From Rhodospirillales bacterium (lineage in GTDB: Bacteria; Pseudomonadota; Alphaproteobacteria; ATCC43930; CGMCC-115725), in the NCBI GenBank assembly GCA_947473305.1, contig CANJCB010000041.1, positions 1 through 35,916 on the forward strand: a stretch of DNA of 35,916 bases. Direction: 5' to 3'. The number at the start of each line of letters is the position of its first letter. Position 1 is the first letter of the stretch. The translations under genes and the position numbers were made by a program. Shown here in pieces: positions 2,980 through 31,490 of the stretch. The notes beneath the pieces were generated by a model. That model did no database searches. It had not been told where the DNA came from and saw nothing but the letters and a program-made list of their open reading frames with translations.

Positions 2980-2995
2980 GCCCAAGGGGCATCAA

Positions 2996-5059
<2,064 letters not shown>

Positions 5060-5069
5060 GGATCCCATC

Positions 5070-5678
5070 ATGCTGAAACAGATACGCCCCGCCTTCATGA
5101 TGATCGTCGCCATGACGATCATCACCGGCCTGATCTATCCCCTGGGAATGACCGGGATCGCACAGATTCTCTTTCCCCATCAGGCGCAGGGCAGCCTCGT
5201 CTCTAAGGACGGCAAGGTGATCGGTTCCGACCTGATCGGCCAGAATTTCGCGGACGAAAAATACTTCCACGGGAGGCCCTCGGCGACGACCGATACCGAC
5301 CCCGGCGATGCCACGAAATCCGTGCCGGCGCCCTATAACGCGGCCAATTCCGCGGGTTCCAACGCCGGTCCCACCTCCAAGGCGCTGGTTGACCGGGTTA
5401 TTCAGGATGCCGAAAAACTGAAGGCCGAGAACCCGTCCCTGCCGATACCCGTGGACTTGGTGACCACCTCGGCAAGCGGCCTCGATCCCGACATCACGCC
5501 GGCAGGCGCCTTCTTCCAGGTTCCCCGGGTCGCCAAGGCCAGAGGGCTGCCTGAAGATCGCGTCCGGCAGCTTGTGAAGGATTCCATCCAGGACCGTCTT
5601 CTCGGAATCATCGGCGAGCCCCATGTGAATGTCTTGCGGCTCAACCTCGCTCTCGACACACTGACGGGAGTGAAATAG
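5070..5678 (+). CDS. kdpC: KdpC, accessory subunit of the K+-transporting ATPase
   Basis: KdpC is the single-pass subunit that caps KdpA on the periplasmic side and raises ATP affinity. The 202-residue protein starts with a short cytoplasmic tail and one membrane helix (about residues 10-33, containing the family's [14 protein letters not shown]). A soluble domain follows with the hallmark [23 protein letters not shown] and [15 protein letters not shown] stretches, then RVAKARGL and [11 protein letters not shown] near the end. Its start is 10 bases after the kdpB stop. The gap to kdpD is only 19 bases, which supports a kdpFABCDE transcript. Confidence 0.97.
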
Positions 5679-5697
5679 CCGGGCACGCCGGCCCCTC

Positions 5698-12297: not shown

Positions 12298-12331
12298 GCA
12301 CCGGCGAGTTTAACGCTCGCCGGCGCTTTTT
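12298..12331 (+). terminator. Strong Rho-independent terminator between convergent genes
   Basis: The stem GCACCGGCGAG / CTCGCCGGCGC (11 positions, one A-C mismatch) encloses loop TTTAACG and is followed by five T residues. It ends the binding-protein transcript from the left. The livM stop codon (TAA on the minus strand, 12310-12312) lies in its loop, so the last codons of livM form one arm. The minus strand has only a short T-run after the stem, so it should work mainly rightward. Confidence 0.85.
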
Positions 12332-13290
12332 CTTCCCATTCTGCGCCAAAGCCAGTTACCGGCCAGTCGGATGAGGCCGGCGACGCCCGTCGGCATGGCG
12401 TACATGAAGCCGATCAGGAAAACGCCGTAGATCGCCCAGGGCGCGGCTTTGGAAATCTGATCCGCCATATTGGGCACGAAGACGATGAAGACTGCTCCAT
12501 AGAAGGCTCCCGCGATGGTCGCCAGACCTCCGACAGCCACGCCGACGAGCAGGCTGATGCTGAAGAAGAGGTTGAAGCTGTCGGGCGCCACGAATTGGAC
12601 GACGATGGCTCCGAGCGCGCCGGCGACGCCGGTATAGAGCGCGCTGATCCCGAAGGTCATGGATTTCAGATAGGCCGTGTTTATCCCCATCGCGGCGGCG
12701 GCTGTGGGATGGTCGCGAATGGCGATCATCGCCCGGCCGAAGCGCCCCCGCAGCAGGTTCCATCCCAGAAGGAACATGACCAGCGTCACGGCCAGCACGA
12801 AATAATAGAGCCATTGGTCCGCATCGATGGGCAGTCCGAAGGGGGCCTCGGGCTTGTCCAGGACGATCCCTTGGGAGCTGCCGGTCCACCGGCTCATGCC
12901 CCGGTATTTGAGAAGCTGCGGTGTCGCGAGCGCGAGGGCGAAGGTTGCCAGAGCCAGATGGATGGTTCCCAGGCGCAGGGCCGGCCGGCCGAAAAGAAAG
13001 CCGGAGATCAGGCACACGACGGCGGCGGCCGGCAGCGTCGCCCAATAAGGCCAGGCCCCATGCTCCATCAGGATCGCCGCAGTATAGGCGCCGATCGCAT
13101 AGAAGGCACCATGGCCCAGCGAGATCTGGCCGTTGTAGCCGATCAGCATGTTGAGGCCGAAAACCGCGATGGCATAGATCAGCACGAGGGTGAACTGAAA
13201 GGTCCTGTACTGCTCGACCGCCAGCGGCAGGAGGCAAGCCGAAGCGATCAGCAGCACGAGCCCGAGACGCTTCCAGGTCGTGGTCTTCAT
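12310..13290 (-). CDS. livM: LivM-like branched-chain/amide ABC transporter permease
   Basis: This is one of the two inner-membrane permeases of a high-affinity Liv-type (HAAT) importer. The 326 residues include about eight to ten hydrophobic segments and the LivM signatures LNMLIGYNGQISLGHGAFY, the EAA-like loop GRFGRAMIAIRDHPTAAAA-MGI and GAFYGAVFIVF. The start ATG 13290 (MKTTTWKR) lies 8 bases after the livH stop; the open frame continues upstream into livH in another frame, but that part is Arg/Gly-rich shadow. It is last in the minus-strand order livG-livF-livH-livM, and its 3' end is shared with the terminator hairpin. The substrate could be an amino acid, urea, amide or aromatic acid; the family does not decide this. 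Confidence 0.92.
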   Translation of the reverse strand: MKTTTWKRLGLVLLIASACLLPLAVEQYRTFQFTLVLIYAIAVFGLNMLIGYNGQISLGHGAFYAIGAYTAAILMEHGAWPYWATLPAAAVVCLISGFLFGRPALRLGTIHLALATFALALATPQLLKYRGMSRWTGSSQGIVLDKPEAPFGLPIDADQWLYYFVLAVTLVMFLLGWNLLRGRFGRAMIAIRDHPTAAAAMGINTAYLKSMTFGISALYTGVAGALGAIVVQFVAPDSFNLFFSISLLVGVAVGGLATIAGAFYGAVFIVFVPNMADQISKAAPWAIYGVFLIGFMYAMPTGVAGLIRLAGNWLWRRMGRKSAGER

Positions 13291-13298
13291 CGGAAGCG

Positions 13299-14171
13299 CT
13301 AGACCCGCGACACGACGGTTTTGCCCAGGAGACCGTCGGGCTTCACCACGAGGGTGCCGATGATCGCCACCAGGGCGACCGTGAGTTTGAGTTCCGTGCC
13401 CACGACATAGGCCCCGGCCAGGTTTTCCAGCACGCCGATGATGAAGCCGCCGACGACCGCGCCCCACGGATTGTTGATGCCTCCGAGGAGCGCGGCCGCG
13501 AAGGCATAGACCAGAATGCCGCCCATCATATTGGGATCGAGGAAGACGATGGGTGCCACCATCATGCCGGCGACCGCGCCGATGGCCGCCGCGAGGCCCC
13601 AGCCCAGCGCTAGCATCCAGCCCACGCGAATGCCGACGAGGCGGCTTGAAACCGGGTTCTGCGCCGCCGCCCGCATGGCGAGCCCCAGCGAGGTGAAGCG
13701 GAAGAAGCTGTAGATCGCGACCAGCATGGCAAGCGTCACCCCCATCGATCCGAGCTCATGGTAGGAGAGGAGGCTGCTGCCGAAGGGCCGGCTATCGGGG
13801 AAGGGGCTCGGGAAGCTCCTGGTGGTGTAGCTGAACCACCAACCCGCAAGCGAATTGAAGATCACGAGGATGCCGATGGAAACGATCACGGCGGAAAGGC
13901 CCGGCGCATTCTCCACGGGGCGGATCACCACGCGCTCCAGCACGACGCCGCCCAGAAAGGCGAGCCCGACCGTCACCGAAAAGGCCGCCCAATAGGGCAG
14001 GCCCCCTTCGATCAGGCTCCAGGCGACATAGGTGGCGAACATCGCCATTTCGCCCTGGGCGAAATTGATGTGATTGGTCGCGTTGTAGATCATCACCAGC
14101 GCCAGCGCGACGGAAGCATAGATCCCGCCGGTGGCGAGGCCGGAGAAGACCTGATGAAGAAGGGCGTCCAT
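13299..14171 (-). CDS. livH: LivH-like branched-chain/amide ABC transporter permease
   Basis: This is the partner permease, 290 residues and hydrophobic throughout. It shows the LivH landmarks SGLATGGIYASVALALVMI and NATNHINFAQGEMAMFATY at the N-terminus, GLAMRAAAQNPVSSRLVGI (the cytoplasmic loop that contacts the ATPases), and NNPWGAVVGGFIIGVLENL near the end. The length is normal for the family. It starts 5 bases after the livF stop and ends 8 bases before livM, so the four genes form a compact operon. In this family LivH and LivM form the heterodimeric channel. Confidence 0.93.
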   Translation of the reverse strand: MDALLHQVFSGLATGGIYASVALALVMIYNATNHINFAQGEMAMFATYVAWSLIEGGLPYWAAFSVTVGLAFLGGVVLERVVIRPVENAPGLSAVIVSIGILVIFNSLAGWWFSYTTRSFPSPFPDSRPFGSSLLSYHELGSMGVTLAMLVAIYSFFRFTSLGLAMRAAAQNPVSSRLVGIRVGWMLALGWGLAAAIGAVAGMMVAPIVFLDPNMMGGILVYAFAAALLGGINNPWGAVVGGFIIGVLENLAGAYVVGTELKLTVALVAIIGTLVVKPDGLLGKTVVSRV

Positions 14172-14176
14172 CGCCG

Positions 14177-14889
<713 letters not shown>

Positions 14890-14893
<4 letters not shown>

Positions 14894-15705
14894 GCCGCCA
14901 TTCCCAGATAGGCGCGGATGACTTCGGGGTCGTGCTGCACCTCGGCAGGCGTTCCGTCCGCGATCTTGCGGCCGAAATCGAGCGCCACGACCTGGTCCGA
15001 TACCCGCATGACCAGATTCATGTGATGCTCGACCAGCAGCACGGTGAGCTGGAGGCTGTCGCTGATCTCCTGGATGAGGCCGCGCAGCGCATCGACCTCT
15101 TCGTGATTGAGGCCGGCGGCCGGTTCATCAAGGAGCAGGAGCTTGGGTTCTCCGGCCAGGGCACGAGCAAGCTCCACCCGTTTCTGCGTCCCGAAAGGCA
15201 GATCCATCACGCGGGCATCGGCGAGCTTGCCGAGGTCGAGCAGTTTGATGAGCCTCTCGGCCCTGTCCCGAAGCGTGCTCTCTTCCCGCGCGACACTCGG
15301 CCAGCGCAGGAAATTCGCCACATATCCCGTGGTGGTGCGGCAATGGCCGCCGACCAGGATGTTCTCCCGGACGCTCATGGTCTGGAAGAGGGCGAGGTTC
15401 TGGAAGGTGCGGCCGATGCCCAAAGCCGCCATGCCGTGGCGCGGAATGCCCGCCAGAGCGCGGCCGTCGAAATCGATGGTGCCGGCGTCTGAGGCATAGA
15501 TCCGGCTGAGGCAATTGAAGAGCGTGGTCTTTCCGGCGCCATTGGGACCAATGATGCCGCAAATGTCGCCTTGCCTGACCTCGAAGGAGATCCCGTCGAG
15601 GGCGACGATCCCGCCGAAACGGACGGACAGATCCCTAACCCGCAGAATGGGTGCCGCAGATAGAGTGCCGGCGTCAGTTATGGTCATGCCTCCCGGTGCG
15701 GCCAT
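14890..15705 (-). CDS. livG: LivG-like ABC transporter ATP-binding protein
   Basis: This is the first gene of the minus-strand transporter operon, 271 residues. Walker A is GPNGAGKTT (53-61), the signature is LPFGTQKRVELARAL in the degenerate form normal for LivG, Walker B is LLLLDEPAAGLNHEE, and the switch His is in VEHHMNLVM. The conserved domain begins at residue 20 (ILRVRDLSVRFGG). Two starts are possible: ATG 15705 (MAAPGG) and ATG 15687 (MTITDAG). Neither has well-spaced ribosome binding bases, so the first is used here. No LivJ-type receptor gene lies upstream; a gene remnant of another receptor class occupies that position on the other strand. Confidence 0.93.
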
Positions 15706-17939: not shown

Positions 17940-18641
17940 TCAGGCGGCGCCGCGCTTGGGTTCCGCTTCGATCGCTTTCAGGCGTTGGATGACCTCGGCG
18001 GTCGGCATCACATCGGCGTATTTCTCCGACATGTCGAAGAGATTGACCGCATGGGAGGCCGCGCTGCGGTCGTAGACGCATTCCTGGGGCACCACGACCC
18101 TGAAGTTATAGGAGAAGGCATCGACCACCGTGCCGCGCACGCAGCCGCTGGTGGTGCAGCCGGTGACGACTAAAGTATCCGCGCCCAGGTCTATGAGATG
18201 GCTCGCCATGGCCGTCGCGAAAAAGGCGCTGGGGTGCTTCTTGGGGATCAGGATGTCGCCGTCCAGCGGGGCAACCTCCGCAACGAATTCATAGCCCTTG
18301 GCCGGGATCGTCATGATCGCGGGCACCTTTTCCGCCAGGCGGCCACCGTCGTAGGAGGCCTTGGGCGCCACATGGGGATAGAGCACCGGCCATTTGTTGC
18401 GGCGGAACTCGGCGAGCAGCGGGGCGATATTGGCGACCGCCTTCCAGCCGACTTCGCCGCAGCTGGTCGGAAACTCCTTGATCGAGTCCCAGAAAGGACG
18501 GGAAACCGTGCCGACCGTTCGATACTGCACGTCGATGATCAGGAGCGCGGGGCGCTTGCCCCAGCCCGAAGGCCTGCCGAAGCCTGCCGCGCGATAGGCT
18601 TTCTGTTCGTCCTCGCTGATGATGCCGTCCCAGGGTTTCAT
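17940..18641 (-). CDS. Isochorismatase-fold amidohydrolase (N-carbamoylsarcosine amidase/NicF-like)
   Basis: This 233-residue cysteine hydrolase has the catalytic triad of the family: Asp37 in ALLIIDVQY, a Lys at 134/135 in LIPKKHPSAFFAT, and Cys167 in TGCTTSGCVRGTVVDAFSYNF-type sequence. The loop VVVPQECVYDRS after it is also typical. Members that cut carbamoyl or amide groups include N-carbamoylsarcosine amidase and maleamate amidohydrolase (NicF). The N-terminal extension GIISEDEQKAYRAAGFG resembles the carbamoylsarcosine-amidase branch. It is transcribed divergently from the hydantoinase-like gene, with an 89-base gap that holds a palindrome. Together they would hydrolyse a cyclic amide and then a carbamoyl or amide product; this pairing is inference. 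Confidence 0.85.
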   Translation of the reverse strand: MKPWDGIISEDEQKAYRAAGFGRPSGWGKRPALLIIDVQYRTVGTVSRPFWDSIKEFPTSCGEVGWKAVANIAPLLAEFRRNKWPVLYPHVAPKASYDGGRLAEKVPAIMTIPAKGYEFVAEVAPLDGDILIPKKHPSAFFATAMASHLIDLGADTLVVTGCTTSGCVRGTVVDAFSYNFRVVVPQECVYDRSAASHAVNLFDMSEKYADVMPTAEVIQRLKAIEAEPKRGAA

Positions 18642-18672: not shown

Positions 18673-18730
18673 CTTTTGCCACATCGGTTTGAAGCTCCGC
18701 AATGTTCCTGCGGTTCTGAGGATAGGTCCC

Positions 18731-20089
18731 ATGCAATTCGATACCGTCGTCGCCAACGGCACCGTCGTATTCCCCGAAACCGGGCCTGCGCCGGCCGATA
18801 TCGCCGTCAAGGACGGCAAGATCGCGGCGATCCTGACGGCGGGCCAGTCTGAGGGGACCGCGCGCCGGACCATCGATGCGACCGGACGGCATGTCTTTCC
18901 GGGCCTCATCGACGCCCATATCCATTTCGGCTTCGCGGAGCCCGTCACCGAATATACGACCGAGACGATCTATGCCGCCCAGGGCGGATTCAGTACGGTC
19001 CTCGGCTTCTTTCTCAACAATGAGCCCTATGGCGGCGTCTTCGAGCGAGAACTCGGCCACGCGCTGCCCCGGGCGCATGTGGATTTCGGCTTCCATTTCA
19101 GCACGGCAAGTCCCCAGCACCTTCAGGAGATGGAAAGCTACGTCCGCGACTACGGGGTCAATTCCTTCAAGTATTTCATGAATTTCAAGGGCGAGGAGGG
19201 TCGCTACCTCGGGCTCGACGGGACCGACGACAGCTACCTCTACGAGCTTCTGCAAGAGGCGGCGCGGATCGGGAATGTCACGGTGGTGCTGCACACGGAA
19301 AATATCGAGATCGTCAACAAGATGCGCCGCGACTCCCAGGCCGCGGGCAAGGATACGCTGCGCGACTGGTGCCTCGCGAAACCGGCCTTCACCGAGGCGG
19401 AGAGTGTTATCCGCGCCCTCTATTTCGCGGAACACCACGGCGCCACGATCTATATCCCGCATCTCTCCTCGGCCATGGCGCTGGAGGAGGTGCGGCGTTG
19501 GCGCAAGCGCTACGACCGGGTCTATGTGGAGACCTGCCCCCAATATCTGACCCATACGCTCGACAGCGACATGGGCAGCGTCGGCAAGGCGAACCCGCCG
19601 TTCCGCACGCAAGCGGATGTGGACGCGCTTTGGGAGGGCTTGGCCGATGGCTCGATCGATGTCGTCGCGTCGGATCATGTGCCCCGCAAGAAAGCCACCA
19701 AGGAGAAGCCGATTTGGCAGGCGTCTCAAGGCTTCCCGGGCACCGCGACGATCCTGCCCGTCCTGCTGGGGGAGGGCTATCACAAGGGCCGGCTCTCGCT
19801 GCAGCGCATCGCCCAGGTCCTGACTTCGGCTCCGGCGCGGATTTTCGATCTCACGGACAAGGGGGCGATCAGGGTCGGGCTAGATGCCGATCTCACCATC
19901 GCCGACCTCGGCCAGGAACGCATCGTCAAGGCGGAGGAACTCGGGTCCTTCTCGGACTACAGCCTCTACGACGGCTGGAAATTCAAGGGCTGGCCGCGTT
20001 TGACCATGGTTCGGGGAACCGTCGTGATGGAGGATGGAAAGATCGTCGGACCCGCGGGTCACGGCAAGTTTCTGGCTCGCGGTAAGTGA
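18731..20089 (+). CDS. Hydantoinase/dihydropyrimidinase-like cyclic amidohydrolase
   Basis: This 452-residue TIM-barrel amidohydrolase would open a cyclic imide or amide ring (hydantoin, dihydropyrimidine or allantoin type). The binuclear metal set is complete: His63 and His65 (GLIDAHIHFG), Lys147 in SFKYFM (the carboxylated lysine), His188 (VVLHTEN), His244 (YIPHLSS) and Asp315 (VVASDHVPR). The last third carries GLDADLTIADLGQE, normal for the small beta-domain. The start ATG 18731 follows GAGGATAGG; the frame is open to 18668 but overlaps the operator. Many true dihydropyrimidinases have HxH followed by T/D loops different from FGFAE here, so the exact substrate is open. The neighbouring divergent amidase fits the next hydrolytic step. 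Confidence 0.87.
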   Translation: MQFDTVVANGTVVFPETGPAPADIAVKDGKIAAILTAGQSEGTARRTIDATGRHVFPGLIDAHIHFGFAEPVTEYTTETIYAAQGGFSTVLGFFLNNEPYGGVFERELGHALPRAHVDFGFHFSTASPQHLQEMESYVRDYGVNSFKYFMNFKGEEGRYLGLDGTDDSYLYELLQEAARIGNVTVVLHTENIEIVNKMRRDSQAAGKDTLRDWCLAKPAFTEAESVIRALYFAEHHGATIYIPHLSSAMALEEVRRWRKRYDRVYVETCPQYLTHTLDSDMGSVGKANPPFRTQADVDALWEGLADGSIDVVASDHVPRKKATKEKPIWQASQGFPGTATILPVLLGEGYHKGRLSLQRIAQVLTSAPARIFDLTDKGAIRVGLDADLTIADLGQERIVKAEELGSFSDYSLYDGWKFKGWPRLTMVRGTVVMEDGKIVGPAGHGKFLARGK

Positions 20090-20273: not shown

Positions 20274-20990
20274 ATGTCGGCCCTGAAACCCATCGCCGTG
20301 GCGTCACTGGCGGAGGAGGCTTTCGAGAAGCTTACTCAGGCGATCTCGACGGGGGAGTTCCTGCCGGGGGAAAAGCTTTCCGAAGCCAACCTGTCGCGAC
20401 AATTGGCGATCAGCCGGGGCACTCTGCGGGAGGCGCTGGGACGGCTCGAAGGGCGGCTCGTCTCGCGCACGCCGAGGGTAGGCTTCCGGGTCATCGAGCT
20501 TTCGTCTCAGGATGTGGTGGAACTCTTTACCGTTCGGGAGGCCCTGGAGGGCATGGCTTGCCGTCTCGCGGCCGAGCGGATCACCGACCGCGAGATCAGG
20601 ACCTTGCGCGATCTCCTGGATCGGCACAGCAACGACAAGAAGGTGCTGGGTCCGAAAGGCTATTACCAGCGATCCCTCGACGAGGATTTCCATGCGCTGA
20701 TCGTGCGCTATGCCGGGCAGCGTCGGCTGGAGCAGATGCTCATGGAGCAACTCTATTTCCAGCTTCGCCTGCATCGCTTCCAGTCTAGCGAACGGCCGGG
20801 CCGCGCCGACCAGGCGTTCCAGGAGCACCGAGCAATCCTCGAAGCCCTGGCCACCCGCGATCCCGACAAGGCCGAGGCGGCCATGCGCCAGCACGTGCGC
20901 AAGGCGCTCGCCCAGACCCTGCTGCCGGCGGAAGGGATCCAGGATCCCGCGCGGATCGTGACAAAAACGCTGGCCCAACGCCGCCGATAA
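20274..20990 (+). CDS. GntR-family transcriptional regulator, FCD (FadR-like) subfamily
   Basis: This 238-residue repressor-type protein has an N-terminal winged helix (about 10-75) with the GntR signature FLPGEKLSEANLSRQLAISR, then GTLREALGRLEGRLV and a wing at RTPRVGFRV. The C-terminal FCD effector domain (about 80-225) holds the usual acidic/His ligand set: DFHALIVRYAG, EHRAILEAL and MRQHVRKAL, so a metal-bound carboxylate effector is likely. The start ATG 20274 has AAAGGA 7 bases ahead. It is 8 bases upstream of the methyltransferase gene, so they share a transcript. The palindrome over its own promoter, repeated ahead of the hydantoinase gene, makes it the best candidate for local control of the island. 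Confidence 0.9.
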   Translation: MSALKPIAVASLAEEAFEKLTQAISTGEFLPGEKLSEANLSRQLAISRGTLREALGRLEGRLVSRTPRVGFRVIELSSQDVVELFTVREALEGMACRLAAERITDREIRTLRDLLDRHSNDKKVLGPKGYYQRSLDEDFHALIVRYAGQRRLEQMLMEQLYFQLRLHRFQSSERPGRADQAFQEHRAILEALATRDPDKAEAAMRQHVRKALAQTLLPAEGIQDPARIVTKTLAQRRR

Positions 20991-20998
20991 AGGAGACC

Positions 20999-22126
20999 AT
21001 GATGCCCAAGGACGCTCCTGCCGGGGAAGGTGCGGCGCCGCTCGCCGATGCGACGGTGATGCCCTATGGCCTCGACGTGCTGTCGCGGGACGAGCGGTTC
21101 GAGCTCAGCATCTATCAGGGCTTCCTCGCTGGCGTGAAAACCTATTGGCGCGGCGATCTCTACGCCAAGGTGAAGGGCAAGGCGGAGGCCATCGGCGGCA
21201 ACGATCCCGAGGCCATTGAACGGAAAATGCAGGGCGATCCTGACTATTTTCTCTATTCCTGGCTGGAGCGGCGGGGGCAACAGTTCAAATATGGCGGCCG
21301 GGGCGGGCTCCAGACCTTGGCCACGAAGCATGCGGCGGAATTCGCCGCCCGGCTGCCGCCGCCGGACACCTCGGCGAAGGCCATTTCCACGGTTCCGGGC
21401 TATGTGAGCGATTTCGACGTTCACCAGCACCCCAAAGGGCTCTGGTCGGATATGGCCAATGCCGTCGCTCATGAATGGTATCAGACGGGCCATTCCTTCT
21501 CGGGCGTCGGGACCGATGCGATGGTCGATACTTATGTCGGCGCCATCGTCGATCATATGCCACCGGACGGGAGGGTTCTCGACCTGGGCTGCACGCTGGG
21601 GCGCATGTCGACAGCGCTGCGCCAAGCCGCGCCGGGCGCCACAATCGTCGGGGCGGATGTGAGCGAACCGGTGATCCGGCTCGCGCGGGTGAAGGCGGCG
21701 CAGCGCGGCCTCGATATCGCCTTCCATCAGGAAAATTCCGAGGATCTGCCCTTCGAGGACGTGAGCTTCGATGTGGTCGCGTCCCATTGGCTGTTCCACG
21801 AGCTGCCCAAGGCGGCGATCGGCAGGACGCTCGACGAGACGGCGCGGCTCCTGAAGCCCGGTGGCTGGACCGTGATCTTCGACATGTACCACGTGCCGGG
21901 CGGGACGATCGGCCAATGGTTCCATGCGGGCTATGGCGTCCGCAACAACGAGCCCTTCGGCGAGGGCTATGTGCATTACGACCTGCGGAGCGCGCTCGCC
22001 CGGCGCGGCTTCACCGATATCGAAATGTCGAATTTCGATCCTGAAATTGGCGGTCTGCGCTGGGTCGAAGACCTGCCGGCCAAGCGCACCCACTACAATA
22101 CCGTGGTGGTCGCCAGGAAAGCCTGA
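20999..22126 (+). CDS. Class I SAM-dependent methyltransferase
   Basis: This 375-residue protein has an N-terminal helical region (1-190) not recognised in detail and a C-terminal Rossmann methyltransferase domain. Motif I is VLDLGCTLGRMS (193-204), with C-T-L in place of the common C-G-x; then VGADVSEPVIRLAR (acidic loop Asp), ENSEDLPFEDVSFDVV, and the post-motif LLKPGGWTVIFDM. The long N-terminal part suggests recognition of a sizeable or carrier-bound substrate, or a dimerisation role. Two adjacent ATGs (20999 and 21002) share AGGAG at 20991-20995; the second has the better spacing. It follows the regulator by 8 bases and precedes the tandem hydrolase by 31 bases, so it is in the same operon. 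The methyl acceptor is unknown. Confidence 0.82.
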   Translation: MMPKDAPAGEGAAPLADATVMPYGLDVLSRDERFELSIYQGFLAGVKTYWRGDLYAKVKGKAEAIGGNDPEAIERKMQGDPDYFLYSWLERRGQQFKYGGRGGLQTLATKHAAEFAARLPPPDTSAKAISTVPGYVSDFDVHQHPKGLWSDMANAVAHEWYQTGHSFSGVGTDAMVDTYVGAIVDHMPPDGRVLDLGCTLGRMSTALRQAAPGATIVGADVSEPVIRLARVKAAQRGLDIAFHQENSEDLPFEDVSFDVVASHWLFHELPKAAIGRTLDETARLLKPGGWTVIFDMYHVPGGTIGQWFHAGYGVRNNEPFGEGYVHYDLRSALARRGFTDIEMSNFDPEIGGLRWVEDLPAKRTHYNTVVVARKA

Positions 22127-22157
22127 CCGCCAGTCAGTGCTTCAGAGCGGAGAAAAC

Positions 22158-23834
22158 ATGACGAACCGGGTGACGCGTCATTTCGTCAATGTCGAGGGCC
22201 GGCGGGTCCACTATAGCCGTGCGGGCGACGGGCCGCCCGTCGTGATGCTGCATGCCTCGCCGGTTTCCGGAAAGGCGATGAGCCTGCCGCAGGAAGTTTT
22301 CGCGGCCAATCACACGGCCATCGCCTTCGACAACCCGGGCTTCGGGCTTTCGGACCTCCTGGCCCTGGAACAGCCGGAGATCGGCGACCTCGCCGATGCA
22401 CTGGCGAAGACGCTCGATGCGCTGGGCATCGCGCAGACGGCGGTCTATGGCCGGCACACAGGCGCCGCCATCGGCGTCGAATTCGCGCGCCGCTATCCGG
22501 AACGCTGCAGCTTGGCCTTGAGCGACGGTTTCCCGCTCTGGGCGTCGGGCGTCGCCGAGGATCGCATCAAGTCCTATCTGACGCCCATCGTGCCGACCTG
22601 GGACGGGGCGCATCTCACCTGGATCTGGCTCAGGTATCGCGACCAATTCGTCTTCTGGCCCTGGCATGGACGGTCTGCCGACAAGCGCGCCGACCAGGAT
22701 GTGCCGGACCTCGATTTCCTGCAGCGTGGCGCCCTCGAATTCCTGGAGGCCGGGGATGGCTATCGGGTCGGCTATGCGGCGGCCTTCCGTTACAAGGGGC
22801 TGGAGACGATTTCCCAGGTGAAGGTGCCGGCCTGCTACGGCAACCGGCCCGGCGACAGCCAGTTCAAGACCATGGCGATGTATCCGCCGGAGGCCTGGAC
22901 CGCCGAGATCCCGCGCGAGGCCTATCCCGCCGCGGTGGCGGAACGGGAAATTCTGGGAAAACATCCCGCAAAAGGGGAGGTGCCTCCCGCTATTCCCTGC
23001 GGTGACCTGCCTGACCGCACGACGCTTGATTACGTCGATCTCGACGACAGCCAGATGCTGGTCCGGCGTTTCGGCGAGCAGGACAGCCGCACGGCTTTGG
23101 TGCTGATCCCGGACTTGCCGGGCTCGACCGCGCTGCATGACGATCTCATCAAGGCGCTCGGCCGTCATCGCCCAGTGATCGCGCTCGACCCGCCGGGTCA
23201 CGGCGAATCCGACTCGGCTCCAGGGTTCGAGCAAACCGTTGAAAGTTGGGCGGCGCGTGTCGTCGAGGCACTCGACCGGCTTGGCGTCAGGCGGTTTCAT
23301 CTCCTGGGCATGGGCACTGGTGCGACAGTGGCGGTGGAAATCGCCCATCGTATCAGGAGCCGGGTGGCCTCCTTGATCCTGAACGCGCCGCCGTCCCTGG
23401 CGCCAGGGGAGGGGGCGGCGCTCGCGCCCCGTTATGCGCCGTCGATCCTGCCGGAGTGGGATGGAACCCATATGGCCCGGCTCTGGCATCATCTGCGCGA
23501 CCAGGAACTCTGGTGGCCCTGGTTCGACCGCCGCCGCGCCACCATGCGCAGGACCGACCCTCGGATCGGAGCCGAGGAGCTGACCGCCCGGGTCCGTGAA
23601 GCCATGAAGCATCCGGAGACCTATCGCCCGGCCTGGGAAGCGGTTCTGACCTATCCGCTCCTGGCGCGGCTGGCGGCCACGGCCGTCCCGACCGTGCTGA
23701 TGACGGCGCCGGGAGACCTTTTCGCGCGTTTCATCGACCAGGCTGCCGAGGTCTGCCCCGGCGCGCCGGTTCTGCGGGTCGGCGATACGGCCGAGGAACG
23801 CGCTGCGGCGATCCTGTCCCACCTTCCGGGATGA
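22158..23834 (+). CDS. Tandem alpha/beta-hydrolase-fold protein without nucleophile serines
   Basis: The 558 residues form two alpha/beta-hydrolase units from a duplication. Both halves share PTWDGAHL (146-153) or PEWDGTHM (432-439), RDQ, and WPW at 167-169 and 453-455. The oxyanion region is LHASPVSG in unit 1 and IPDLPGST in unit 2; strand-4 turns are FDNPGFGLSD and LDPPGHGESD. The nucleophile elbow G-x-S-x-G is G-R-H-T-G (98-102) in unit 1 and G-M-G-T-G (384-388) in unit 2, so neither has Ser, Asp or Cys there. A catalytic His near the end of either unit is also not evident. It may be a non-hydrolytic lyase or binding protein, or use another mechanism. ATG 22158 follows CGGAGA. Its stop overlaps the next start by 4 bases. 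Confidence 0.82.
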   Translation: MTNRVTRHFVNVEGRRVHYSRAGDGPPVVMLHASPVSGKAMSLPQEVFAANHTAIAFDNPGFGLSDLLALEQPEIGDLADALAKTLDALGIAQTAVYGRHTGAAIGVEFARRYPERCSLALSDGFPLWASGVAEDRIKSYLTPIVPTWDGAHLTWIWLRYRDQFVFWPWHGRSADKRADQDVPDLDFLQRGALEFLEAGDGYRVGYAAAFRYKGLETISQVKVPACYGNRPGDSQFKTMAMYPPEAWTAEIPREAYPAAVAEREILGKHPAKGEVPPAIPCGDLPDRTTLDYVDLDDSQMLVRRFGEQDSRTALVLIPDLPGSTALHDDLIKALGRHRPVIALDPPGHGESDSAPGFEQTVESWAARVVEALDRLGVRRFHLLGMGTGATVAVEIAHRIRSRVASLILNAPPSLAPGEGAALAPRYAPSILPEWDGTHMARLWHHLRDQELWWPWFDRRRATMRRTDPRIGAEELTARVREAMKHPETYRPAWEAVLTYPLLARLAATAVPTVLMTAPGDLFARFIDQAAEVCPGAPVLRVGDTAEERAAAILSHLPG

Positions 23835-25114
23835 TGCCGGGCTTGCGGATCGGCCTCACGATCGCGCTGGTTGTTGCAGGTTTCGGCCTTACCCTCTGGG
23901 TCTTTTATCCCGGGGTCATGACCTATGATGCGCGGTTCCTCTATGAGGATATCGGGCGTCACACCCTGGGCGATTGGCAATCCCCGGTCATGGGCGTGCT
24001 TTGGGGGCTGGTCGATCCGATAGCGCCGGGATCGGGCAGCATCTTCCTGGTCACGGTGGCGATCTATTGGCTCGCGTTCGGGACACTGGCTCTGGCATTG
24101 CTGCGGCGCTCTTTGCCGCGCGCCCTCTCGATCCTCTTCCTGGCCTTGATGCCCCCGGCTTCCATTCTGGTCGGCGTCATCTGGCGGGACATTCTCTTCG
24201 CCGGGCTTTGGCTGCTGGCAGCCGCCTTGTGTTTCCTTGTGGCGGAGCGCCGGGGACCTTTGCGGCTGACCGCCCAGGCCATCGCCCTAGCGTTGATCGC
24301 GCTTGGCGTTCTGCTGCGCCAGAACGCGGTTATCGCGGCGCCGTTGCTCGCCGCCTATGCGATCTGGCCCACCAGGTTTGAATGGAAGCGGACGGCGCTC
24401 TTCTATCTGCCGGCGGCGCTCGCCTTCTATCTTCTCATCCCGGGCGTCTATTACGGGATGCTCGGGGCGCAGCGGCAGCATCCGCTCCAGTCGATCCTGG
24501 TCTACGATCTGGGCGGCATCACCCATTTCGCTGAAGAGAACCAATTCCCTCTCGCCTGGAACCCGGAAGAGGCCAAGCTGCTGACCTCAGGCTGCTACCG
24601 GCCAACGGAATGGAACGTCTATTGGTCCTATGGGCCTTGCCGCTTCGTAATGGAACGGCTTGAGGCGGAAAAACTCTTCGGCAGCGCCGCTTTGCCGGAA
24701 GCATGGATCAGGGCCGTGGCCCGGCATCCCATCGCCTATCTCCAGCATCGCCTAAGCTTCTTCGGTAATTTCATCGGGGGCGAGAACGTCACCCTCTGGC
24801 CTTGGAACCTCGACAAGCCGGGACAATTGATGTTTCAGGACCGGCCCGCTTTTGCGGCTTTGGTGTCGGGCCACGACGCGTTGAAGCCGACCCCGCTTTT
24901 CCGGTCGGGCACCTGGCTTGCGACGAGCTTGATCCTGGCCTTCTTTGCTTGGCCGCGAAGGAAGGGACCCGCCGGGACCTTCATGCTCTGCGTTTGCGGA
25001 TCCGCGGCGATCTATATGCTGACCTTCCTGCCCGTCGGGGTGGCCTCGGATTTCCGCTATGCCTATTGGGCCGTGCTCGCGACCTTCGCGGGCGTGGTCA
25101 TGATCCGGGCCTGA
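23831..25114 (+). CDS. Multi-pass membrane protein, GT-C glycosyltransferase-like
   Basis: The 427-residue protein has about nine to eleven hydrophobic segments. After the first helix it reads YPGVMTYDARFLYED, then GDWQSPVMGVLWGL: an acidic residue in the first periplasmic loop followed by D-W-x-x-P, a pattern seen in GT-C fold membrane transferases and their uncharacterised relatives. Other markers are MPPASILVGVIWRDILFA and LLRQNAVIAAPLLA. A large loop (about 225-310) lies between the later helices. Its ATG overlaps the stop of the tandem hydrolase (ATGA), so translation is probably coupled. A lipid-linked sugar transferase seems out of place in a catabolic cluster; an export or polymer function for this operon is therefore possible. 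The assignment is by overall pattern only. Confidence 0.6.
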   Translation: MMPGLRIGLTIALVVAGFGLTLWVFYPGVMTYDARFLYEDIGRHTLGDWQSPVMGVLWGLVDPIAPGSGSIFLVTVAIYWLAFGTLALALLRRSLPRALSILFLALMPPASILVGVIWRDILFAGLWLLAAALCFLVAERRGPLRLTAQAIALALIALGVLLRQNAVIAAPLLAAYAIWPTRFEWKRTALFYLPAALAFYLLIPGVYYGMLGAQRQHPLQSILVYDLGGITHFAEENQFPLAWNPEEAKLLTSGCYRPTEWNVYWSYGPCRFVMERLEAEKLFGSAALPEAWIRAVARHPIAYLQHRLSFFGNFIGGENVTLWPWNLDKPGQLMFQDRPAFAALVSGHDALKPTPLFRSGTWLATSLILAFFAWPRRKGPAGTFMLCVCGSAAIYMLTFLPVGVASDFRYAYWAVLATFAGVVMIRA

Positions 25115-26517: not shown

Positions 26518-27726
26518 ATGGCAGGGGTATCGTCGAAGCGTCCTCATGTGCTGGTGATCGGTGCGGGGATCGGCGGTCTGACGGCGGCGATCGCGTTGCT
26601 GAAAAAGGGTTTCGACGTCGATGTCTACGAGCGCGCTTCTGAATTGACCGAGGTTGGCGCAGGGCTCCACCTGTCGCCGAACGGGACCAAGACGCTTTAC
26701 AACCTCGGCCTCAAGGAGGCGTTGGATCGGGTGGCGGTGAACCAGACCGACCGCGAGGTCGCGCTCTGGAATACCGGGCAGGCCTGGAAGATCGCAAATC
26801 ATGGGACGAGCGCCGCCAGCCGCTTTGGGGCTCCTTATCTCCTGATGCATCGAGGCGATCTCCATGCGCTGCTGGTCCAGGGCGTGAAGGACCTGAAGCA
26901 CGACGCCATCCATGTGAATGCCAAATGCACCGGCATCGAACAGGACGGCGCGGGCGTCACGATCACTTTCGAGAACGGCGAGACGGTGCGGGGCGATGCG
27001 CTCGTGGGGGCGGATGGTTTCCATTCGGCCGCACGGCACACCCTTTTCGGCCAGGACAATCCCCGTTTCACGGGCTACATCGCCTGGCGCGGACTCATTC
27101 CCATAGAGAAGGTGCCTCAAGGCATCGCGCATTATTCGGCGGCCTGGATGGGGCCGGCGGGGCAGATCACCCTCTATCCTGTCCATCGCGGCGAGCTTTT
27201 GAATTTCGTCGGGATCACGCTGCGCGACGACTGGCGGGTGGAATCCTGGACGGTGGCGGGCTCGCGGGACGAATGCGCCAACGATTTCAAAGGCTGGCAT
27301 CCAGCGATCCTGGAACTCATCAGGAATATCGACACGCCCTATAAGTGGGGCCTTTTCTCGCGCGACCCTATCCCCGGCTGGAGCCAGGGCCGCATCACCC
27401 TGCTGGGCGATGCCTGCCATTCCATGCTGCCTTTCCTGGGGCAGGGGGCCAATATCGCGGTGGAGGACGGCTTCGTCCTGGCCCGCTGCCTCGACGCAAG
27501 TCCAGAAGACATCCCCGCCGCCTTCGCCCGCTATGAAGCGGCGCGGCGGCCGCGGGCGACCCGGGTGGTGTTGGAGACGCTCGAACAGTGGAAAAAGGTG
27601 CGCCATCCCGATATCGGCGACCCCGAAAAGGCGCCGGGTTATGTCGAGCGCGAATGGTCCCCTGAAAAAATGAAGGGGCGCTACGACTGGATTTTTGAAT
27701 ACGATGTGGCCACGACGCCGATCTGA
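26518..27726 (+). CDS. FAD-dependent aromatic monooxygenase (group A, NicC/salicylate hydroxylase-like)
   Basis: This 402-residue flavoprotein hydroxylates an aromatic or N-heteroaromatic ring with NAD(P)H and O2. It has the dinucleotide fold VLVIGAGIGGLTAAIALLKKG (split at residues 11-31) with the acidic VYERA, the DG motif LVGADGFHSAARHTLFG, and the GD motif LLGDACHSMLPFLGQGAN with Asp298. Length and features resemble 6-hydroxynicotinate 3-monooxygenase, salicylate hydroxylase and the pyridine-ring oxygenase of vitamin B6 breakdown; the sequence alone does not separate them. ATG 26518 has GGAG 7 bases upstream. It opens a five-gene + strand run; the next gene, a NicX-like enzyme, begins 18 bases later, which favours a dihydroxylated pyridine-type product. 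Confidence 0.87.
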   Translation: MAGVSSKRPHVLVIGAGIGGLTAAIALLKKGFDVDVYERASELTEVGAGLHLSPNGTKTLYNLGLKEALDRVAVNQTDREVALWNTGQAWKIANHGTSAASRFGAPYLLMHRGDLHALLVQGVKDLKHDAIHVNAKCTGIEQDGAGVTITFENGETVRGDALVGADGFHSAARHTLFGQDNPRFTGYIAWRGLIPIEKVPQGIAHYSAAWMGPAGQITLYPVHRGELLNFVGITLRDDWRVESWTVAGSRDECANDFKGWHPAILELIRNIDTPYKWGLFSRDPIPGWSQGRITLLGDACHSMLPFLGQGANIAVEDGFVLARCLDASPEDIPAAFARYEAARRPRATRVVLETLEQWKKVRHPDIGDPEKAPGYVEREWSPEKMKGRYDWIFEYDVATTPI

Positions 27727-27744
27727 ACGGCCAGGAGGAATTCG

Positions 27745-28803
27745 ATGACTCTCGATTGCGACCGCTCGCTTCTCGCGGTAGGCGCGGATGTGCTGGTGCG
27801 GGACTTCATGTGCGTGACGCGCGGTGAATCCGTAGTGATCACGACCGACTGCGCCGGCGACATGCTGGGCGTCCAGGCCGTTTTCGACGCGGCGCGGGTC
27901 CAAGGCGCGAAGCCGACGATCCTGGTGGTGCCGCAGATGCCCTATCAAGGCGCGCTGGCCGATCCCTTCATCCCCGAGCCCGTGGCGGCGGCGGTCAAGA
28001 ACTGCGATGTCTGGATCGACATGGCCTTCCCCTATATGGCCGGTTCCAAGGCCCATGCGGAGGCAATGAAGACCGAGCGGGTCCGCTCCCTACAACTCGC
28101 GGATCTCGGCGCGGGGGGGATCGAGCGGCTCTATGCCCATGTGGATCTGGACCTGCTTTTCGAGTTGCAGGTCTCGCTGGACGCGGTGATCGGCAATGCG
28201 ACGGGGAAGATCTGCCGGGTCACGAACGAGAAGGGGACGGATGTTTCCTTCAAGATCGCCAAGCCCGCGACCAAGAAGCTGCGGCGGACCAATGTCCCGG
28301 GGACCTACACCCCGCCGGGTTCGGCTGTGATCTATCCCGATAAGGATACGGTCAAGGGCACCGTCGTCATCGACGCGACCTTCCACGAGTACCACACGCT
28401 CCTGAAGTCGCCGATCCGCCTGGAGATCGACGGCAAGATCCAGAACGTGAGCGGCGGCGGCTCCGACCGGCGCGTGCTGGAGCGGGCCTTGCGGCGCGCG
28501 GGCGGCGGGGAATATGGCTCGATCATCCATTTCTCCCATGGCTTCCATCCGGCCGCGCGGCTCGCGGGGCGGTCCTTCATCGAGGACATCCGGGTCGCGG
28601 GCAACAGCGCCATCGGCTTCGGTATCCCCTGGTGGGAGCCCGGCGGCGGCGAGAACCATCCGGACGGAGTGGTGACCATGCAGTCGCTGTCCATCGAAGG
28701 CGACGAGATCATCCGCGACGGCGCCATCGTTGCGCCCGCCATCGCCTGCCAGCTGGAGCGGGAACTCCAGGCAAATCTCCGTAAAGGTCCTCGAGGGAGT
28801 TGA
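27745..28803 (+). CDS. NicX-like (peptidase M29 fold) ring-opening dioxygenase or aminopeptidase homologue
   Basis: This 352-residue protein is of the M29 fold, which includes leucyl aminopeptidases and 2,5-dihydroxypyridine 5,6-dioxygenase (NicX). It has the strand-loop GTVVIDATFHEYHT with LEIDGKI after it, a His cluster in IIHFSHGFHPAARL (His262, His265, His268), and NHPDGVV with His305 and Asp307. NicX holds Fe(II) with one His of the first region and the H-x-D pair; that pattern is kept, though the distance between them is about 40 residues rather than the 53 I recall for NicX. Glu residues essential for M29 peptidases were not found in the expected contexts. ATG 27745 follows a strong AGGAGG. 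Following a flavin monooxygenase, a ring-opening oxygenase role is favoured over peptidase. Confidence 0.72.
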   Translation: MTLDCDRSLLAVGADVLVRDFMCVTRGESVVITTDCAGDMLGVQAVFDAARVQGAKPTILVVPQMPYQGALADPFIPEPVAAAVKNCDVWIDMAFPYMAGSKAHAEAMKTERVRSLQLADLGAGGIERLYAHVDLDLLFELQVSLDAVIGNATGKICRVTNEKGTDVSFKIAKPATKKLRRTNVPGTYTPPGSAVIYPDKDTVKGTVVIDATFHEYHTLLKSPIRLEIDGKIQNVSGGGSDRRVLERALRRAGGGEYGSIIHFSHGFHPAARLAGRSFIEDIRVAGNSAIGFGIPWWEPGGGENHPDGVVTMQSLSIEGDEIIRDGAIVAPAIACQLERELQANLRKGPRGS

Positions 28804-28805
28804 GC

Positions 28806-29819
28806 ATGGAAACCCGGACGGAAATCTATCGTCATCTGATCGAGACCCCCGACGCCTGGACCGGACCGTCGCTCGGCGGCAAGGAGGCTTTGGTTCATCC
28901 GCTCTCAGCCGCCCATCTTGAGGCGATCGACGAGCTTTTGAAGAAGACGCGGCACCTGAAACCGCAGGAGATCACCCGCGCGGACTTCGACCATCCGCTG
29001 CTGAACAAGCTGCTGGCCGACTATTACGAGACCATCATGAATGGTCGCGGCGTGGTGCTCATTCGCGGGGTAACGCAGGACCGCTACAGTCCCGAGGATT
29101 TCGAGCGGATCTATTGGGGCTTCGGGACCCATTGGGGCGATGCTGCCGTGCAGAGCACCAGGGGCGATCGCCTGGGACATGTGCGGGAAGACAAGGACAA
29201 TCCCGACGCGCGCGGCTACCGCACCTCGGCGGAGCTTGCCTATCATACGGATTCCTACGAGATCGTTGGCCTCATGTGCGTCGAGCGGGCGGAGAGCGGG
29301 GGCTACAGCCGGCTTACCAGCACGACCGCCATCCACAACGAGATCTTCAAGAACCGCCCGGAACTGCTGCCCGCGCTTTATCGCGGTGTGCCCCATGCGG
29401 TGCTGGAAGCCCGCCGCTCGGCCCAGCCGGTGACGCCCTATAACGTGCCGGTCTTCTCTTGCGTCGATGGCAAGGTGAGCTGCCTTTACAGCCGCATGTT
29501 CATGGTGGCCGCGGTGGAGCGGACGGGGATCGAGTTTCCGCCGGATTTTGCCGAGGTCTGCACCTATTTCGAGGAACTGGCCAAGAGCGACGAGATGAAG
29601 CTGAGCTTCGTGCTGGAGCCGGGCGAAATGCTGGTCTGGAACAATTTCACGACGCTCCATTCCCGCACCAAGTTCGAAGATTCGGAGAAGCACCAGCGGG
29701 ATCTGCTGCGGCTCTGGCTTAATGTCGAGAACGGCCGGCCGGTCGTGCCGGAACTCTTCACCTGGGCCAATATCTACAACAGTCTTTATAAGGATCAGGC
29801 CGTCGCCAAGGCGAGCTGA
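28806..29819 (+). CDS. TauD/TfdA-family Fe(II)/2-oxoglutarate dioxygenase
   Basis: This is a 337-residue non-heme iron oxygenase. The facial triad is His147 and Asp149 (LAYHTDSYEIVGL) and His285 (NNFTTLHSRTKF), and Arg302 in QRDLLRLWLNVE is placed to bind 2-oxoglutarate. The leading part GRGVVLIRGVTQDRYSPEDF is typical of the TauD superfamily. Likely chemistry is hydroxylation that leads to removal of an alkyl, sulfonate or amine group, or ring modification; the substrate is open. The start at ATG 28806 has GGGAG 6 bases upstream; a TTG two codons earlier would overlap the previous gene's stop. It lies 2 bases after the NicX-like gene and so is co-transcribed with it. Confidence 0.88.
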   Translation: METRTEIYRHLIETPDAWTGPSLGGKEALVHPLSAAHLEAIDELLKKTRHLKPQEITRADFDHPLLNKLLADYYETIMNGRGVVLIRGVTQDRYSPEDFERIYWGFGTHWGDAAVQSTRGDRLGHVREDKDNPDARGYRTSAELAYHTDSYEIVGLMCVERAESGGYSRLTSTTAIHNEIFKNRPELLPALYRGVPHAVLEARRSAQPVTPYNVPVFSCVDGKVSCLYSRMFMVAAVERTGIEFPPDFAEVCTYFEELAKSDEMKLSFVLEPGEMLVWNNFTTLHSRTKFEDSEKHQRDLLRLWLNVENGRPVVPELFTWANIYNSLYKDQAVAKAS

Positions 29820-29858
29820 TCTCAAAGACCAAACGACATGATCGACTGGGGGCTTCAA

Positions 29859-31472
29859 GTGACTGAACGGAAATCGACGGGACCGAAGGCCGTGGTAGCG
29901 GCTCTGCTGGCGAGCGGCGTATTGGCGGCAGGTTTCGCCTCGCCGGCCTTTGCCGATGCGACCACGCCGGTCAGGGGCGGCACGCTCATCACGACGCTGG
30001 GGGCTGATCCGCCCGGGCTCAATCCTGTCCTTTCAACGGCTCTGGGCGATTCGATCACGGGCTGCATGCTCTACTCGGCCTTGCTGTCGGTCACCAAGAC
30101 AGGCGAGCCCAAGCCTTATCTCGCCAAGAATTTCACCGTCAGCCCGGACGGGCTCACCTATACGCTGGAGCTCAACAAGGCGGAGTGGAGCGACGGCAAG
30201 CCCCTGACCTCCGAGGACGTCAAATACTCGCTGACCGAGGTCAATGCGAAATACGGCTCGCATTATTCGGCCGTTGCGCGGAGTCTAGAGGGGATCGAGA
30301 CCCCTGCGCTCGACAAGGTGGTCTTCAAGCTCAAGCATCCGACCGCCTATTTGCCGCTGTCGCTGGCCTGCGGCGGCGGCGGGGCGATCCTGCCGGCGCA
30401 TATCTTCCGCGGCACGAATGTGCTGCAAAATCCGGCCAATACCCAGACGCCGGTCGGCTCCGGCCCCTTCATGCTGAAGGAATGGAAACGCGGCGATCAC
30501 ATCCGCATGGTGCGGAACCCGAAATATTTCGAGCCGGACAAGCCCTATCTCGACGACATCGTCCTGCGGATCATGCCACAGGCGGGCTCCCGGACCCGGG
30601 CCCTCATCGCGGGCGAGCTTGATTATCTCTTCTTCTATTACCTGCCGGCGAGCGACCACACCCAGATCGAGAGCGATCCCAAGCTGAAGCTCGCGACCTC
30701 CACCATGCCGCCTGTGCTGGACATCATGTCCTTCAACGTTGCGCGCAAGCCGCTCGAAGACAAGCGGGTGCGTCAGGCGCTGATGATGGCGACCGACCGC
30801 GATTACCTGGTCAAGAACGCCTGGTCGGGCAAGGGCAAGGTCGGGACCATGCCCTTCACGACGGAACTCCCCTGGACCGTCAATCCGGATGTGGACTATC
30901 GGAAGCTCTATCCCTTCGACTATGCGAAGGCCAACGCGCTCCTGGACGAGGCGGGCTATCCGCGTGGAGCGAACGGCATCCGCTTCAAGCTCAAGATGGT
31001 CTATGCGACGGAAGAGGCTGAGTTGGCGCTGGCCGCGGTCGCTGCCAAGGCCATGTGGCGCAATGTGGGCGTGGATATGGAAGTCTTCGGCGAGGATCGC
31101 GCCGCCCAGCTTCAGAAGGTCTTCAAGGATCACGATTTCGACGTGACGCTCAACGGCTGCGGCACCTTCTTCGATCCGGCCCTGGGCCTGGAGCGCCTCT
31201 ACATCAAGGCCACCATCGGCAACGTCTATGGCAATGCCTCGAGCTTCATCAATCCGGAGATCGAGACCCTGCTGCATGACGCCGGAAGCGCCACCAAACA
31301 GGCCGACAGGACCAAGCTCTATCAGGTCGCCCAGGCAAAGATCGCCGATGAGCTGCCGGTGGTGACTCTGCGGGAAAAGGGCAATTTCAATGCGGCCTCC
31401 AAGAAGGTCCATTGGGACGAAACACTGACCGACCAGTGGCGGAACTGGGCGGATTTCTGGATGGAAAAATAG
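29859..31472 (+). CDS. Family-5 (dipeptide/oligopeptide-type) ABC solute-binding protein
   Basis: This 537-residue periplasmic receptor has a classical signal peptide: MTERKSTGPKAVVAALLA, a hydrophobic core and SPAFA, with cleavage before DATTPVRGG. The mature part has the SBP_bac_5 landmarks TLITTLGADPPGLNPVLSTA, KNFTVSPDGLTYTLELNKAE-W-S-DGKPLTSEDV, VGSGPFMLKEWKRGD and YPFDYAKANALLDEAGYP. GTG 29859 is preferred because a G-rich stretch (29848-29852) is well spaced and the signal peptide begins there; an ATG at 29838 adds seven residues without ribosome binding bases. No DppB, C, D or F partner is in the window. It lies within the oxygenase operon (40 bases after the TauD-like gene), so it presumably imports the pathway substrate through distant permeases. 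Confidence 0.9.
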   Translation: MTERKSTGPKAVVAALLASGVLAAGFASPAFADATTPVRGGTLITTLGADPPGLNPVLSTALGDSITGCMLYSALLSVTKTGEPKPYLAKNFTVSPDGLTYTLELNKAEWSDGKPLTSEDVKYSLTEVNAKYGSHYSAVARSLEGIETPALDKVVFKLKHPTAYLPLSLACGGGGAILPAHIFRGTNVLQNPANTQTPVGSGPFMLKEWKRGDHIRMVRNPKYFEPDKPYLDDIVLRIMPQAGSRTRALIAGELDYLFFYYLPASDHTQIESDPKLKLATSTMPPVLDIMSFNVARKPLEDKRVRQALMMATDRDYLVKNAWSGKGKVGTMPFTTELPWTVNPDVDYRKLYPFDYAKANALLDEAGYPRGANGIRFKLKMVYATEEAELALAAVAAKAMWRNVGVDMEVFGEDRAAQLQKVFKDHDFDVTLNGCGTFFDPALGLERLYIKATIGNVYGNASSFINPEIETLLHDAGSATKQADRTKLYQVAQAKIADELPVVTLREKGNFNAASKKVHWDETLTDQWRNWADFWMEK

Positions 31473-31490
31473 TCGACAGGAGGTGCTCCG

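Follow-up and report, generated by a model that had tools for sequence, protein, structure and literature searches.

A two-unit alpha/beta-hydrolase-fold protein from a Rhodospirillales bacterium with a conserved histidine at the nucleophile elbow and a degenerate partner unit

In canonical enzymes of the alpha/beta-hydrolase (ABH) fold, a strand-8 histidine bridges the residue at the nucleophile elbow and the acid. Haloalkane dehalogenases, fluoroacetate dehalogenase, and epoxide hydrolases have an aspartate at the elbow together with this strand-8 histidine, and the Ndr family has the ABH fold without a catalytic triad and a non-enzymatic function. HOD-type dioxygenases cleave the ring of a 3-hydroxy-4-oxoquinoline with O2. 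The elbow residues given in a 2024 survey of the fold (PMC11878206, section 2.7) are Ser, Asp, and Cys, besides sites that have no nucleophile, among them a D/E-H dyad without Ser. The survey places the histidine on the strand-8 loop and gives the catalytic set of the epoxide hydrolases as D-D/E-H; its section 2.7 describes no elbow histidine. According to another report (PMC10548524), the cofactor-free ABH dioxygenases HOD and AqdC act on N-heteroaromatic substrates with a His-Asp pair and without an essential nucleophile; their histidine, residue 251, is on the strand-8 loop, and their elbow residue is Ser or Ala.

Here we consider P0001, a protein of 558 residues encoded at 22158..23834 (+) of a 35,916-nucleotide contig (CANJCB010000041.1, assembly GCA_947473305.1), the whole of which is referred to as the window. 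Its family has a G-x-H-T-G motif at the elbow. Searches of titles and abstract beginnings in the open-licence PMC literature for an ABH His elbow or GxHxG motif, for nucleophile-less ABH proteins, and for tandem ABH proteins with a dead unit did not find this family, and those on the gene cluster and on pJE1 found nothing. As far as these searches reach, the family is undescribed within that literature.

Layout and predicted structure of P0001

The open reading frame of P0001 starts 5 nt after GGAG (22149..22152, +), a likely ribosome-binding site, and its start codon aligns with the start of the homologue L009. A gap of 31 nt separates it from the methyltransferase gene upstream (20999-22126). 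A membrane-protein-like ORF (23831-25114) overlaps its end by 4 nt (ATGA) and gave no Pfam or NCBIfam match.

A preliminary description of this DNA had proposed two homologous units in one chain. This is confirmed by the repeat blocks WDG (residues 148 and 434), RDQ (161 and 447), and WPW (167 and 453), all at an exact spacing of 286 residues, by the two stretches matched by Pfam PF00561 (Abhydrolase_1, 78.8 bits against a cut-off of 25.8), and by an AlphaFold2 model. Unit 1, the lead unit with the His elbow, spans residues 3-268 (22164..22961, +), and unit 2, the degenerate partner, spans residues 288-558 (23019..23831, +); their boundaries come from the model and its superpositions, their assignment from the conservation described below, and their sequences are 24% identical.

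The model, computed from a 12-sequence alignment, has a pLDDT of 90.0 and a pTM of 0.89, and the high pTM suggests that both units are packed in a defined way. In unit 1, strand 94-99 passes directly into helix 101-112, and in unit 2, strand 380-385 is followed by helix 388-398; because of this strand-then-helix order, residues 100 and 386 are identified as the nucleophile-elbow positions. The elbow motifs, read as in the preliminary description, are G98-R-H100-T-G102 and G384-M-G386-T-G388, and the structure prediction it called for puts both His100 (22455..22457, +) and Gly386 (23313..23315, +) at the elbow. Among the 50 matches listed, both halves superpose on solved ABH enzymes with VIA Z scores of 24-28. 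The matches of unit 1 are esterases and fluoroacetate dehalogenase, with Z up to 25.4, and those of unit 2 are haloperoxidase-type esterases, with Z up to 27.7. A single-unit relative of 275 residues, L019, gave a model (pLDDT 83.0, pTM 0.86) in which strand 92-97 and helix 99-110 make His98 the elbow residue; of the solved structures, this model superposes best on the enol-lactonase 2xua (VIA Z 29.2, rows within 1 Z being tied). No solved structure with an elbow histidine was seen in the 5 alignments inspected of 309 matches.

Regarding the other members of a canonical triad, the acid has a counterpart in Asp233 (22854..22856, +), at the canonical position after strand 7, and a second candidate is Asp123 (22524..22526, +), at the end of strand 6. 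The usual histidine after strand 8 is absent from both units, as the preliminary description had remarked, and residues 247-264 of unit 1 contain no His. In the corresponding stretch of 70 lead units, some His occurs in 24, with at most 7 in any one column.

Comparison with named families places P0001 within the fold. It scores 95.1 bits against the PcaD model TIGR02427 (cut-off 255.85) and 65.5 bits against the haloalkane dehalogenase model NF002938 (cut-off 241), and it reaches the curated cut-off of none of the named NCBIfam enzyme families among the best 25 of 33 matches. With enzymes of the PcaD enol-lactonase and haloperoxidase-esterase type it shares the fold, the cap position, and the strand-7 Asp; however, these have Ser at the elbow, whereas the P0001 family has His there and no conserved strand-8 His. 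Haloalkane dehalogenases, fluoroacetate dehalogenase, and epoxide hydrolases rank high among the matches of unit 1, by sequence as well as by structure, and have the HxxPxS loop in common with it, but both their elbow Asp and their strand-8 His are missing from P0001. The Ndr model PF03096 is passed at 29.2 bits (cut-off 23.3); P0001 differs from that family in its much better match to PF00561 and in its conserved elbow His-Thr and Asp233. Finally, the strand-8-loop His paired with Asp of the HOD type, as defined in PMC10548524, does not occur in the P0001 family, where the histidine is on the elbow instead.

Conservation of the lead unit and state of the partner unit

For the count of 70 lead units, the lead was assigned by position, except in L035, L038, L073, and L074, where the motif-bearing unit was taken, and in L043, where both units were. 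The elbow residue is His in 65 of them, Ala in 3, Ser in 1, and Lys in 1. Of the other positions, Asp58 is found in all 70, Thr101 in 69, Asp233 and Tyr206 in 64 each, Trp169 in 61, the cap residue Arg161 (22638..22640, +) in 59, and Asp123 in 57. A recount by position alone, which omits the five special cases, leaves 65 leads with His in 60, Thr in 64, and Asp233 in 60. In a nine-row alignment the strand-7 Asp and the cap Arg are invariant. The oxyanion-loop residues H32, P35, and S37 are largely kept, Ser37 being Ser in 56 of 63 units; these 63 units were chosen by their elbow motif and the rows of a further alignment (A2) were picked by hand, so that the His counts in the two sets are not independent.

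Elbows were read from 69 distinct proteins. The single-unit versions that the preliminary description had suggested looking for do exist, 24 of them, and 23 have the His elbow. Ten homologues that are 37-51% identical to P0001 keep it as well, and an eleventh, 29% identical, has Ser. The latter is the second copy in L018 (15537-17282, from a Woeseiaceae MAG), with a GASTG elbow and with the strand-7 Asp and cap Arg lost.

The strand-7 Asp is missing from 4 of the 5 lead units that have no elbow His, but from no more than 2 of the 65 that have it (Fisher p 8e-5, uncorrected for kinship). On the tree, with kinship allowed for, there are about 3 independent losses and the co-loss is not significant (median p 0.5), a test that cannot reach significance because the losses are so few. 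Significant co-evolution of His and Asp is therefore not upheld, and the association is suggestive only.

The window's own genome provides a control. An ABH profile search found 39 places, from which 30 distinct units were read, the remainder being duplicates or places without a locus. Their elbows are Ser in 24, Asp in 3, and His, Gly, and Phe in 1 each; Ser or Asp is thus present in 27 of the 30, and the single His and Gly are those of the two units of P0001. A single-unit relative in this genome (L002, 1161-2057, at C22:1281) has a Phe elbow, GIFTG, and is also without the usual nucleophile.

The partner units are in a different state. An earlier tally had 45 two-unit proteins; the second stretch of L063, L064, L073, and L074 has no profile match, and a recount without these four and L033 leaves 41 proteins and 40 profile-supported partner units. 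Their elbow residues are scattered (G 22, Q 4, N 4, D 3, W 2, S 2, and H, T, and E 1 each), and the strand-7 Asp is kept in 23 of the 40, with no His conserved at their elbows. The cap has fared better: the Arg equivalent to Arg161, Arg447 in P0001 (23496..23498, +), is kept in 39 of 40 by two alignment methods, with Lys in the remaining one, and the His equivalent to His152 in 33 of 40. Within the 41 proteins, the elbow His is found in unit 1 only in 35, in unit 2 only in 2, in both in 2, and in neither in 2, so that 39 have it in at least one unit. The two with His in unit 2 only are the Azospirillum plasmid pair L035/L038, where the degenerate unit comes first and the His-elbow unit second. 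Conservation is higher in unit 1 than in unit 2 (46% vs 35%) in all 91 pairs drawn from 14 close relatives.

A unit tree, which has many poorly supported branches and some long partner rows, puts 40 of 43 unit 1 rows in one group (SH-aLRT 81). A second group (SH-aLRT 93) unites 20 of the 24 single units with both L043 units and the His-elbow units of L035/L038, and the four single units left over fall with L073/L074. From this grouping, two-unit forms probably arose more than once. A set of GHHTG proteins (L073, L074, and L098-L101) has an N-terminal extra stretch of 200-300 residues. Pfam finds a single ABH stretch in L098, which is the same protein as L073, and in L099, the two that were checked.

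Judged by these alignments, the His elbow of unit 1 is a conserved substitution and not decay. The preliminary description had seen no nucleophile in either half and a loss in both. It was right that neither elbow has Ser, Asp, or Cys and that the site of unit 2 is eroded, as the 40 partner units show, but the site of unit 1 is occupied by a conserved His and is not empty. In the homologues, the H elbow proved conserved and the G elbow of unit 2 did not (22 of 40); scattered elbow residues, which that description had taken as a sign of decay, are those of the partner units. Its suggestion that His100, sitting at the elbow, belongs to a new catalytic arrangement gains support for unit 1 from the constancy of His100, Thr101, and Asp233 and from the single-unit proteins.

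Distribution and gene neighborhood of the family

The family is rare and patchy. A scan of 84,980 species genomes returned 13 loci, of which L009-L018 encode two-unit proteins (two copies in L018), L019 a single-unit one, and L020 and L021 ordinary relatives with Ser at the elbow. Of 99 related genomes searched whole at E 1e-40, 3 had matches, counting the window's own, and none of these was found at that threshold in the 38 other genomes of its family; at the class level matches occurred in 24 of 387 genomes (E 1e-22), and at the phylum level in 5 of 397 (E 1e-20). When the actinobacterial relative L036 was the query, 12 of 397 genomes had matches. Its six strongest loci (L098-L101, L104, and L110) have the His elbow, setting aside the own genome (Phe) and L102 (Ala), and its five weakest matches, at about 70-73 bits, have Ser or Asp, from which it appears that the family grades into ordinary hydrolases. 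In addition, 16 of 72,556 plasmid records matched, and each of the nine regions examined holds a His-elbow protein, annotated as an alpha/beta (fold) hydrolase in 7, as a hypothetical protein in 1, and unannotated in 1. A link of the family to phages was considered and dropped, with no match.

The relatives were found with the His-bearing queries P0001, L019, and L036, and the set is biased toward His elbows for that reason. Generic ABH proteins (L002, L003, L004, L005, L007, and L020) were excluded from the elbow, lead-unit, neighbor, and single-unit counts, L006, L008, and L021 fell below the profile threshold, and the near-identical pairs L032/L037, L063/L064, L035/L038, and L073/L074 were retained. 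The whole-genome searches scored at most 6 or 14 candidates per genome, which makes paralogue counts lower bounds. One 3.1 Mb genome, G071 (L022, L024-L031, L046, and L070), has at least nine two-unit members, some in tandem, along with single-unit ones, and its family (f31) is rich in relatives of P0001.

Directly upstream of P0001 is a class I methyltransferase gene (20999..22126, +), relatives of which occur near other family members, and before it come genes for a GntR/FCD regulator (20274..20990, +) and for a hydantoinase/dihydropyrimidinase-like amidohydrolase that stays below NCBIfam cut-offs (18722..20089, +). On the opposite strand are an isochorismatase-family amidase (17940..18641, -), for which the nearest solved structures are 3ot4/3uao and N-carbamoylsarcosine amidohydrolase, a VAO-type flavin oxidase (PF01565/PF02913; 16003..17532, -), and branched-chain-amino-acid-type ABC transporter genes (12310..15705, -), a possible uptake system. 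Across L009-L019, 11 loci in all, the flavin oxidase is present again in 8, the GntR regulator in 5, the hydantoinase in 3, the isochorismatase in 3, and the methyltransferase in 2.

The flavin oxidase is the window gene most commonly found near family members. Within 3 kb of the 69 proteins it occurs 27 times and the methyltransferase 8 times, never both, and these are lower bounds because most loci had flanks of 1.5 kb; 20 longer stretches were viewed apart from this count. In the window, 4.6 kb separate the oxidase from P0001, whereas the methyltransferase gene is directly adjacent. The main single-unit group has the oxidase nearby only on the plasmids L032, L037, and L040. The window's flavin oxidase, used as a query in five genomes, had 3-9 matches in each. 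The window's own is the single strong one in its genome (G000). Matches adjoin a family member in G207, G510 (contig 1), and G071 (contigs 6 and 43), but in G188 seven clear matches are away from the family members reported there. Other recurrent neighbors are Amidohydro_2 proteins (12 of 37 loci), AMP-binding enzymes, acyl-CoA dehydrogenase, and enoyl-CoA hydratase. The neighborhood of the flavin oxidase suggests a part in small-molecule catabolism, with a substrate in the window's version that is perhaps a cyclic or N-containing compound.

Elsewhere in the window, a second catabolic-looking run (26518-33797) comprises an FAD monooxygenase, a TauD dioxygenase, a peptide-type binding protein, and a molybdenum hydroxylase subunit. 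An ORF of this run, at 27745, presumably resembles NicX-type enzymes, but searches of Pfam, NCBIfam, and the PDB gave it no match at the thresholds applied. At 1252-8382 are ordinary kdp genes for potassium transport (KdpA, KdpB, and KdpD-like).

Proposed mechanism and alternative readings

The P0001 family is a real, conserved active-site variant within a known fold. Our preferred reading, which we judge about as likely as not, is that P0001 is a cofactor-free enzyme that works with an elbow-His/strand-7-Asp pair and carries a fused pseudo-subunit. In its favor are the elbow position in both models, the conservation in lead units and single-unit proteins, the Ser or Asp elbows of 27 of the 30 ABH units read in the own genome, and the linkage to the flavin oxidase. 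Against it stand the co-loss of His and Asp, which is not significant once kinship is allowed for, the variation of Asp123, the 23 partner units that keep the strand-7 Asp, the bias of the queries toward His, and the seven oxidase matches away from family members in G188. In such an enzyme, His100 on the elbow of the lead unit, probably paired with Asp233, would serve as a cofactor-free general base/acid, and the usual covalent step on Ser, Asp, or Cys would be absent. General ABH geometry implies that an elbow His could directly reach the strand-7 acid. As substrate, a small intermediate of catabolism, carboxylated or cyclic, would lie beneath the cap with Arg161 and Trp169. P0001 may work by analogy with the HOD dioxygenases, which rely on a His-Asp pair and can dispense with the elbow residue (PMC10548524), but it lacks the strand-8 His that defines them. 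Unit 2 would be a pseudo-subunit in which the active site has been lost; because its fold and cap Arg are kept, it probably makes the chain a built-in dimer in which it completes or stabilizes the active enzyme. The reaction would belong to a catabolic pathway, often together with a VAO-type flavin oxidase and, in this window, with the hydantoinase-like enzyme and the carbamoyl-type amidase as well. We hold a little more tentatively to the wider proposal that the catalytic His moved from the strand-8 loop to the elbow, giving a nucleophile-free dyad with the strand-7 Asp, and that the two-unit form has more than one origin and usually joins an active and a dead unit, in reversed order in Azospirillum.

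The main rival is that P0001 catalyzes nothing and is a binder, its ABH scaffold holding a ligand or a partner such as the product of the nearby flavin oxidase or methyltransferase gene, in the manner of Ndr-type pseudo-hydrolases. Neither elbow has Ser, Asp, or Cys, no His is conserved after strand 8, the Ndr match, weak as it is, exceeds its cut-off, and the linkage to one subfamily of flavin oxidases is frequent, all as a binder would have it. However, a binder has no obvious need of a near-invariant elbow His-Thr and strand-7 Asp, and Abhydrolase_1 is matched far better than Ndr (78.8 vs 29.2 bits), and on balance we think this reading rather unlikely.

We consider two other readings improbable. 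In the first, His100 is itself the covalent nucleophile, forming an acyl- or phospho-His as a one-for-one replacement of Ser, Asp, or Cys, which would agree with its place at the nucleophile site in a G-x-H-T-G turn in the models of P0001 and L019 and with the retention of most oxyanion-loop residues (H32, P35, and S37); yet the loss of the strand-8 His leaves no separate conserved general base, and the elbow residues given in section 2.7 of the ABH survey (PMC11878206) are Ser, Asp, Cys, or none. In the second, a standard hydrolase has relocated its nucleophile to Ser37, Ser34, or Thr101 and uses His100 as the base. The high conservation of Ser37 (56 of 63) and Thr101 (69 of 70) would fit, but the canonical epoxide hydrolase 7ac0 also has Ser at the position of Ser37 (aligned HGWPQS), so that this residue is not specific to the P0001 family, and Ser34 is Ala in L011, L013, L014, and L015; nothing in these data speaks against Thr101. 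The idea that unit 1 descends from a canonical hydrolase now in decay, its elbow His being a chance substitution, can be rejected as highly implausible, since only the 5 of 70 lead units without His speak for it, and it is contradicted by the presence of His in the other 65, across divergent chromosomes and plasmids and in single units too, and by the better conservation of unit 1 in 91 of 91 pairs.

If the conserved elbow His of the preferred, cofactor-free reading is catalytic, it would represent a different solution in one of the largest enzyme superfamilies. Since 7 of the nine plasmid proteins are annotated as alpha/beta (fold) hydrolases, the function implied by that name may be wrong for them. 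The fused pair of an active and a dead unit, its reversed order included, would moreover be well suited to studying how pseudo-subunits evolve.
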